64,000 nt of DNA, taken from NCBI RefSeq assembly GCF_030687395.1, contig NZ_CP117430.1:4960001-5024000 (forward strand). The letters are read 5' to 3'. The position numbers were made by a program, and so were the translations under genes. The notes beneath the pieces were generated by a model. It made no database searches. It was not told where the DNA came from and worked only from the letters and a program-made list of their open reading frames with translations. This DNA comes from Pseudomonas wuhanensis. GTDB taxonomy: Bacteria; Pseudomonadota; Gammaproteobacteria; Pseudomonadales; Pseudomonadaceae. Shown here piece by piece: positions 38,780 through 38,945 of the stretch; position 1 is the stretch's first letter, and each line of letters opens with the position of its first letter.

Positions 38780-38945
38780 GAGAGCGCTCTGGTTGGGCTC
38801 CACGCTTGTAATGTTCGAGGTCGGCTCGTTCAACTGTTCGGGCTCAATAACCAGAGTGGAGAGGTGAATGGCAGCATGGGCTCCCACACGTGCTGCTAGC
38901 ACTCCGGGCGTTCAGCTTGCCACTCACCGCTCTCATCTTCAGTCT
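38780..38945 (-). ncRNA. Candidate IS110 bridge RNA
   Basis: Read on the minus strand, two stem-closed internal loops occur. The target loop is closed by GGTGAGTGGCA/TGCCATTCACC (38918-38928 with 38863-38873) and capped by GTGCT-AGC-AGCAC. One side reads GCCCG (38905-38909), matching the left half of the REP target. The other reads TGTGGGAG (38881-38888), complementary to its right half including the CT core. The donor loop is closed by CTCTGGTT/AACCAGAG (38849-38856 with 38787-38794) and capped by CGAG/CTCG. It contains ACAGTTG (38831-38837), equal to the element's right end, and ACAAG (38805-38809), complementary to CTTGT at its left end. This is the two-loop layout known for IS110 bridge RNAs. 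Exact RNA ends are not known. Confidence 0.75.

Follow-up and report, generated by a model that had tools for sequence, protein, structure and literature searches.

The bridge RNA of IS621 from Escherichia coli has been published together with guide–target covariation over 5,511 ncRNA–target pairs, and the IS621 recombinase is reported to need this RNA in vitro (PMC11208160). The same source describes a promoter that is rebuilt upon circularization in the family and longer right guides in some orthologues (PMC11208160); the active-site residues of IS621 (D11, E60, D102, D105 and S241) and the handshake scheme are described elsewhere (PMC11208158). Pseudomonas IS110 elements targeting REPs were described in 2006 (PMC1525189), ISPpu9 and ISPpu10 of Pseudomonas putida among the elements that insert in REPs with a 2-bp repeat (PMC1525189, PMC8450116). 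Orphan ssr9 genes related to ISPpu9 are reported to be flanked by element-end boxes and to lie at non-REP sites (PMC8450116); these copies could be transposase-less elements carrying their own bridge RNA.

The locus described here shares with IS621 the CT core, a long left end containing the RNA, REP targets and a predicted junction promoter. It also shares the order of a target loop followed by a donor loop, each built as stem, left guide, stem-loop and right guide, with the core within the right guides, a handshake base after each of them and the D/E/D/D/S residues of the transposase. It differs in that the REP sequence is another one, the left target guide lacks core pairing, the right target guide is longer (7–8 nt, against G77–G80 in the IS621 structure; PMC11208158) and the transposase is related at E 7.3e-32 only (IS621 structure 8wt6). 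Compared by description, ISPpu9 and ISPpu10 share the insertion in Pseudomonas REPs and the 2-bp repeat, the AG repeat of ISPpu9 being what would be the same core on the opposite strand, whereas ISPpu9 differs in its reported antisense RNA and downstream sense RNA. ISPa11 of the IS1111 group (seekRNA) is likewise RNA-guided, with a related DEDD transposase and a P. aeruginosa REP target, but its guide RNA lies downstream of the transposase (here upstream) and its subterminal inverted repeats are longer (PMC11187229). Loci of this type in L166 and in relatives from Pseudomonas are also matched by the Rfam family sX15 (RF02234); its model lies on the opposite strand and the focal copy scores below the curated threshold. 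Among the matches listed from an incompletely covered literature, judged by title and opening lines of the abstract, no paper dealt with the bridge RNA of this Pseudomonas subfamily, and the published 5,511-pair data set may well contain members of it (PMC11208160).

The window analysed is a stretch of 64,000 nt from Pseudomonas wuhanensis (contig NZ_CP117430.1), the host genome of which comprises 6.59 Mb in one contig. An FMN riboswitch was noted elsewhere in the window at 22457–22627 (plus strand, 108.9 bits), as was a 1707-residue open reading frame with leucine-rich-looking repeats, read from its translation, at 31496–36619 (plus strand). The element and its flanks are as follows (window coordinates).

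37723..38966, minus strand: IS110-group element of 1240 nt together with its two flanking CT cores; empty site in L128, 11 genome copies
38965..38966, minus strand: CT core, left-end side
37723..37724, minus strand: CT core, right-end side
38967..38973, minus strand: left target (LT) AAGCCCG, flanking REP half
37717..37722, minus strand: right target (RT) CCCACA, flanking REP half
37824..38753, minus strand: transposase, 309 amino acids, DEDD/RuvC-like and Transposase_20 domains (Pfam PF01548 and PF02371)

The element proper spans 37725–38964, and the cores at 37723–37724 and 38965–38966 read CT on the minus and AG on the plus strand. Its non-coding left end (211 nt, 38754–38964) is longer than the right end (99 nt, 37725–37823); this longer left end and the structured RNA region within it place the element in the IS110 group and not in the IS1111 group. 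The transposase scored 217.8 bits against NCBIfam NF033542 (IS110 family RNA-guided transposase; cut-off 140), and the only solved sequences that it matched were those of IS621 (8wt6 and others) and ISCro4 (9t56). Residues D8, E52, D94, D97 and S231 align with D11, E60, D102, D105 and S241 of IS621, all identical, in an alignment counted by hand with the chain numbering of 8wt6 taken as +2 relative to the published numbering. Both domains, the NCBIfam score and the aligned catalytic serine place the transposase in the IS110 family.

The element splits a REP sequence, with AAGCCCG as the end of LT, CT as the core and CCCACA as RT. Seven loci of relatives (L128–L134) were compared at the insertion site; the junction was inspected in six of them (L128–L133) and the element was absent from all six. 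The orthologous site in L128 is uninterrupted, AAATGTGGGAGCGGGCTTGCC, and matched the joined flanks with a single core; the uninterrupted site TGTGGGAGCGGGCTTG is found in L128 and L133, the site sequence being altered in the other four. All 11 copies in the genome, eight identical to the query over 1240 nt and three slightly different, are inserted at CCCG-CT-CCCACA. A further 802 uninterrupted CCCGCTCCCACA sites occur in the genome, against five for the reversed control pattern. The left half of the site is CAAGCCCG in ten of the 11 copies and GATCACCCG in one (L013, G000:C1:5041642). This last copy was considered as a clean non-REP insertion, which would have separated a guide reading from a REP-palindrome reading, and was not used; its left flank occurs without the adjoining right flank in three relatives' loci, so that a later rearrangement is possible.

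Two further observations concern the ends of such elements. About 40 nt of a left end persist inside a REP at L012 (G000:C1:2586240-2586275) and run straight back into REP sequence; a deletion in an older, related element apparently produced this remnant. In relatives at 65–73% identity (L069, L075, L081, L083 and others) the transposase is followed by a near-copy, in inverted orientation, of the right end together with a target half; it reads CTGTGGGAGC..GCTGTCTT in the 3' non-coding end and would allow a hairpin across the right end of an integrated copy. Shuffles scored as high as this hairpin in 0/300 cases for L069, 1/300 for L075, 2/300 for L081 and 1/300 for L083; the focal hairpin (37757–37784, minus strand) is degenerate, with 138/300 shuffles scoring as high.

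Comparisons within Pseudomonas were based on 74 copies, consisting of 54 fetched stretches, the 11 own-genome copies, L021 and L023–L030. The 54 stretches were obtained from 60 by leaving out L067 (assembly break with N), L068 (partial element, replaced by L105) and L123–L126 (a 39% group with different ends), and the fetched relatives leave out most matches below 48% identity; L022 and L031 duplicate L095 and L069 and were excluded. The 24 sets correspond to 22 genomes and the two named records of Pseudomonas arsenicoxydans and P. laurylsulfatiphila. RNA alignment A1 contained 24 of 27 distinct RNA sequences, the near-duplicates L094, L026 and L029 being left out. A more distant group, here labelled IS621-like, was made up of five of the 20 listed plasmid matches, from different organisms, plus L137 and L139, which were the two of sixteen further loci with a recognisable right end; the guides of the five plasmid elements were extracted by script and those of L137 and L139 by eye before the pairing was counted. 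In 14 of the 16 distant loci (L058, L060 and L137–L150; 31–40% identity) ACAGTTG was absent from the stretch searched after the transposase, and these were not used.

The features assigned to the RNA region are listed below; the roles are predicted.

38778..38937, minus strand: bridge RNA body, from fold and covariation
38936–38929 with 38785–38778, minus strand: closing stem, ATGAGAGC with GCTCTCAT
38863..38928, minus strand: target-binding loop, stem GGTGAGTGGCA (38928–38918) with TGCCATTCACC (38873–38863)
38905..38911, minus strand: left target guide ACGCCCG, followed by GA, which cannot pair with the CT core
38881..38888, minus strand: right target guide TGTGGGAG, complementary to CTCCCACA, core included
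38880, minus strand: target-loop handshake base C
38787..38856, minus strand: donor-binding loop, stem CTCTGGTT (38856–38849) with AACCAGAG (38794–38787)
38828–38816, minus strand: inner hairpin CGAG/CTCG of the donor loop
38831..38837, minus strand: left donor guide ACAGTTG, the same as the right element end ACAGTTG at 37725–37731
38805..38809, minus strand: right donor guide ACAAG, which can pair with CTTGT of the left element end
38803..38804, minus strand: donor-loop handshake bases CG
38941..38946, minus strand: −10-like TAGACT, in the circle 17 nt after TTGCTT

The original prediction had placed two stem-closed loops on the minus strand upstream of the transposase and had looked to covariation of their stems among relatives. 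Both loops were present in the predicted fold of the minus strand from 38966 to 38754 (minimum free energy −83.0 kcal/mol, z −4.28, 0/200 shuffles as low), enclosed by a third, closing stem. Over the 24 related sequences 94.0% of the cells in all stems pair, and this value fell to 29–44% when the partners were slid by 1–3 columns. Changes on both sides were found in 12 stem pairs against a shuffled mean of 4.0 (0/500 shuffles as high), these shuffles ignoring relatedness and the focal sequence having supplied the tested structure. By another measure, that of further pair types, the alignment did not exceed the shuffles (402/500 at least as high). Of the predicted stems that of the target loop has the strongest support, with six of its 13 pairs changed on both sides (24 sequences) and 99.0% of cells paired. 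In the donor-loop stem 4/8 pairs (two at the weak inner end) were changed on both sides and 88.5% of cells paired, and the closing stem is weakly supported by covariation, with double changes in one of eight pairs and 88.4% of cells paired. The arrangement is that of an IS621-like bridge RNA, with target- and donor-binding internal loops each closed by a conserved stem. A search of Rfam at gathering thresholds gave no match at 38754–38966, so that no curated family in that library flags the region.

Every motif that had been named was located where it had been placed on the minus strand, with ACGCCCG found where GCCCG had been quoted. One loop had been described as complementary to a target half including the CT core, and in the focal element TGTGGGAG does pair with CTCCCACA. 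Across the 24 sets the right target guide is paired at 7/7 positions in all 74 copies and at 8/8 in 61 of them, over three distinct targets. Guide and site change together: G161 combines a changed right guide TTAGGAAG with a matching changed site CTTCCTAC, and G364 combines GGTAGGAG with CTCCTACA. No copy (0/74) kept the TGTGGGAG loop in an unrelated target, the guide changing too where the right target half changes. The seven IS621-like relatives (39–42% identity) occupy seven different sites, at which 48 of 49 right-guide positions pair; one of 5,040 permutations was as good, and this was the true assignment itself.

The putative left target guide matches the left target, though imperfectly. 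In the focal element ACGCCCG fits AAGCCCG at 6/7 positions, being mismatched to the consensus REP at −6, and core pairing by this guide was not found, GA standing where CT would pair; at the corresponding core position the first base is C in 10/24 sets and CT occurs in 0/24. Counts were made on 71 copies because L082, L112 and L114 are cut by contig ends. Watson–Crick pairs were present at −1 in 68, at −2 in 71, at −3 in 69 (plus two wobble), at −4 in 43 (plus 26 wobble) and at −5 in 64 (plus seven wobble). Pairing is weak at −6 (37 Watson–Crick, 34 mismatched) and at −7 (34 Watson–Crick, 21 wobble, 16 mismatched). The left guide follows the site GCCCC in G309, and in G158 too over the three bases before the contig end; guide and site are CATTCG with AATTCG in G018 and TCGTCCC with TCGCCCC in G161. 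G165 (L083–L085) is a counterexample in which the guide GCCCG is found at GCCCC sites in three copies; the guide may lag behind a change in the host REP, or a mismatch at −1 may be tolerated. The single copy of G188 has a poor left-guide fit (3.5 of 7). L091 (G310) is inserted at an off-consensus site; at −4 the left half of this site, AGTCCG, is a better fit to the guide AGUCCG than is the usual REP. Guides were permuted among 23 sets collapsed to 12 distinct combinations, giving p of about 0.002 for five bases of the left guide and 0.007 for the right guide, with relatedness uncontrolled in both. Among 20,000 dinucleotide shuffles of the two loops TGTGGGAG appeared in 71 and TGTGGGAG preceded by GCCCG in three; GCCCG alone appeared in 2,906 and occurs twice in the region. 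This short motif is weak alone, and its role therefore rests on the comparison with relatives.

The second loop had been read as carrying ACAGTTG, identical to one element end, and ACAAG, complementary to CTTGT at the other, and both matches were confirmed, so that the predicted left and right donor guides match the element ends. In the same shuffles ACAGTTG was found in 220 cases, ACAGTTG followed by ACAAG in five and ACAAG alone in 2,732. ACAAG is invariant in alignment A1 (24 sequences) and ACAGTTG is present in 23/24 sets; G156 has ACAGTTA, which breaks a pair with its own donor end ACAGTTG, and L062 does likewise. The right ends of G018 and G364 contain an additional G, by which the donor match is displaced one base from the core. 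Variation of the donor guides within the Pseudomonas set is minimal, and what supports them is therefore identity and not covariation.

The original prediction made no mention of handshake bases, which are added here. In 74/74 copies the C that follows the right target guide can pair with G, the last donor base; the next target-loop base pairs with the donor in only 23/74. The bases CG of the donor loop pair with the target bases −1 G and −2 C; −1 is paired in 67/74 copies and −2 in 74/74. Among the seven IS621-like elements a G stands behind the right donor guide and pairs with target −1 C in six; the second base pairs in one. The putative handshake bases thus stand after the right guides as in the scheme described for IS621 (PMC11208158).

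A promoter is predicted to be rebuilt at the circle junction. Once the right end, core and left end are joined they form TTGCTT, and the joined junction reads TTGCTT-17 nt-TANNNT in 22/24 sets; in the integrated focal element the −35 position is CCGCTT. The junctions of G018 and G364 were read by eye as TTGGCT-17 nt-TAATGT or TAAGGT, the spacing being readable because the extra right-end base is balanced by one fewer left-end base.

The anatomy of the element, its insertion specificity, the covariation of guides with targets and of stem partners with each other, the handshake complementarity and the conserved active-site residues can all be read from the DNA, and with them the region is very probably an IS621-type bridge RNA programmed for Pseudomonas REPs. 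We infer that it is the functional guide of this element, which includes its transcription from the sense strand, its assembly with the transposase and its activity. On this view the bridge RNA would be encoded in the left end of this IS110-group (IS621-like) element and run parallel to the transposase gene, and upon excision of the element as a circle the joined ends would form a promoter that drives this RNA. In the transposase ribonucleoprotein the joined element ends would be bound by the donor loop (ACAGTTG and ACAAG) and the CCCG-CT-CCCACA site of a Pseudomonas REP by the target loop (ACGCCCG and TGTGGGAG); the transposase would then exchange strands at the CT core with the aid of the handshake bases.

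The alternative that holds up best, which we consider rather unlikely, is that the opposite-strand transcript guides or controls guiding. It supposes that the sense promoter of the integrated element has no −35 box and that the main RNA is antisense, like Xanthomonas sX15 or the RNA Asr9 reported against the transposase 5'-UTR of ISPpu9 (PMC8450116), carrying the same guides in complementary form or blocking the sense bridge RNA. Guide–target pairing is strand-symmetric and equal for either strand, so that the transcribed strand is not proved by pairing. Of six loci searched with the sX15 model ('Xanthomonadaceae sRNA'), four gave a match on the antisense strand of the region (L087 with 57.9 bits at 1545–1708, against a gathering score of 55, L107 with 44.5 and L116 with 43.1; no match in L062 and L066). 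On the focal copy (L014; window 38777–38942, plus strand) the antisense match reached 27.8 bits (E 0.31), which is under the curated threshold and falls short of membership at 55 bits or above. In L166 an sX15 match of 120.2 bits (1501–1662) covers the donor-guide motif CCCGAACAGTTG; its position is immediately upstream of a partial IS110 transposase match, which is on the other strand. The family reportedly comes from an RNA-sequencing survey of Xanthomonas, and a full-text literature search on sX15 returned only a list in a Herbaspirillum paper.

Several points speak for the sense strand. The circle-junction promoter faces the sense direction, and a simple scan of 38600–39100 gave no sigma-70-like promoter on either strand. 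Fold energy is lower for the sense strand in 18/24 sequences, though not in the focal one, which folds slightly better antisense (−75.8 versus −75.0). Small RNA sequencing of IS621 is reported to show RNA over LE, starting at the junction promoter (PMC11208160), and under stricter filters sX15 was found in only one of 274 class genomes, the match being that in L166, and not in the host genome G000. Counts of G-U against A-C cells favour neither strand, at 19 versus 27 in the named structure and 43 versus 27 with the RNAalifold pairs added; RNAalifold likewise predicts the pairs of five A-C cells, and the remaining A-C cells fall in weak end pairs. As a tentative suggestion, IS110 bridge-RNA loci of this lineage could be two-strand switches, in which an integrated copy would give an antisense 'anti-bridge' RNA of the sX15/Asr9 type and the circle a sense bridge RNA, the balance setting when and whether reinsertion occurs; 'orphan' sRNAs such as sX15 would then be bridge-RNA loci read from the other strand.

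It is very improbable that the REP palindromes are recognised by the transposase protein, with the RNA region a structured leader regulating transposase translation and the complementarities target fossils picked up by the element. A ribosome-binding-like stretch, AAGAGG, read from the sequence at the end of the 5' region ahead of the transposase ATG, and a role in translation reported for the folded 5'-UTR of ISPpu9 (PMC8450116) would suit such a leader, but the guides track wholly different targets in the IS621-like relatives and REP variants within Pseudomonas, and in vitro the recombinase of the related IS621 depends on its RNA (PMC11208160). Chance complementarity and folding can practically be dismissed, since the shuffle counts of GCCCG and ACAAG given above would allow for it but the two motif pairs occur in order in just three and five of 20,000 shuffles and both stem and guide–target covariation refute it.

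The bridge RNA reading, the basic mechanism of which was already published for IS621 in 2024, makes such an RNA readable directly from one genome and checkable against its own insertion sites. It provides a natural series inside one genus in which guide and REP target change together, and links a named Rfam sRNA with a bridge-RNA system. The 802 unoccupied copies of the 12-bp target core in this genome constitute a test bed for the choice among equal sites.
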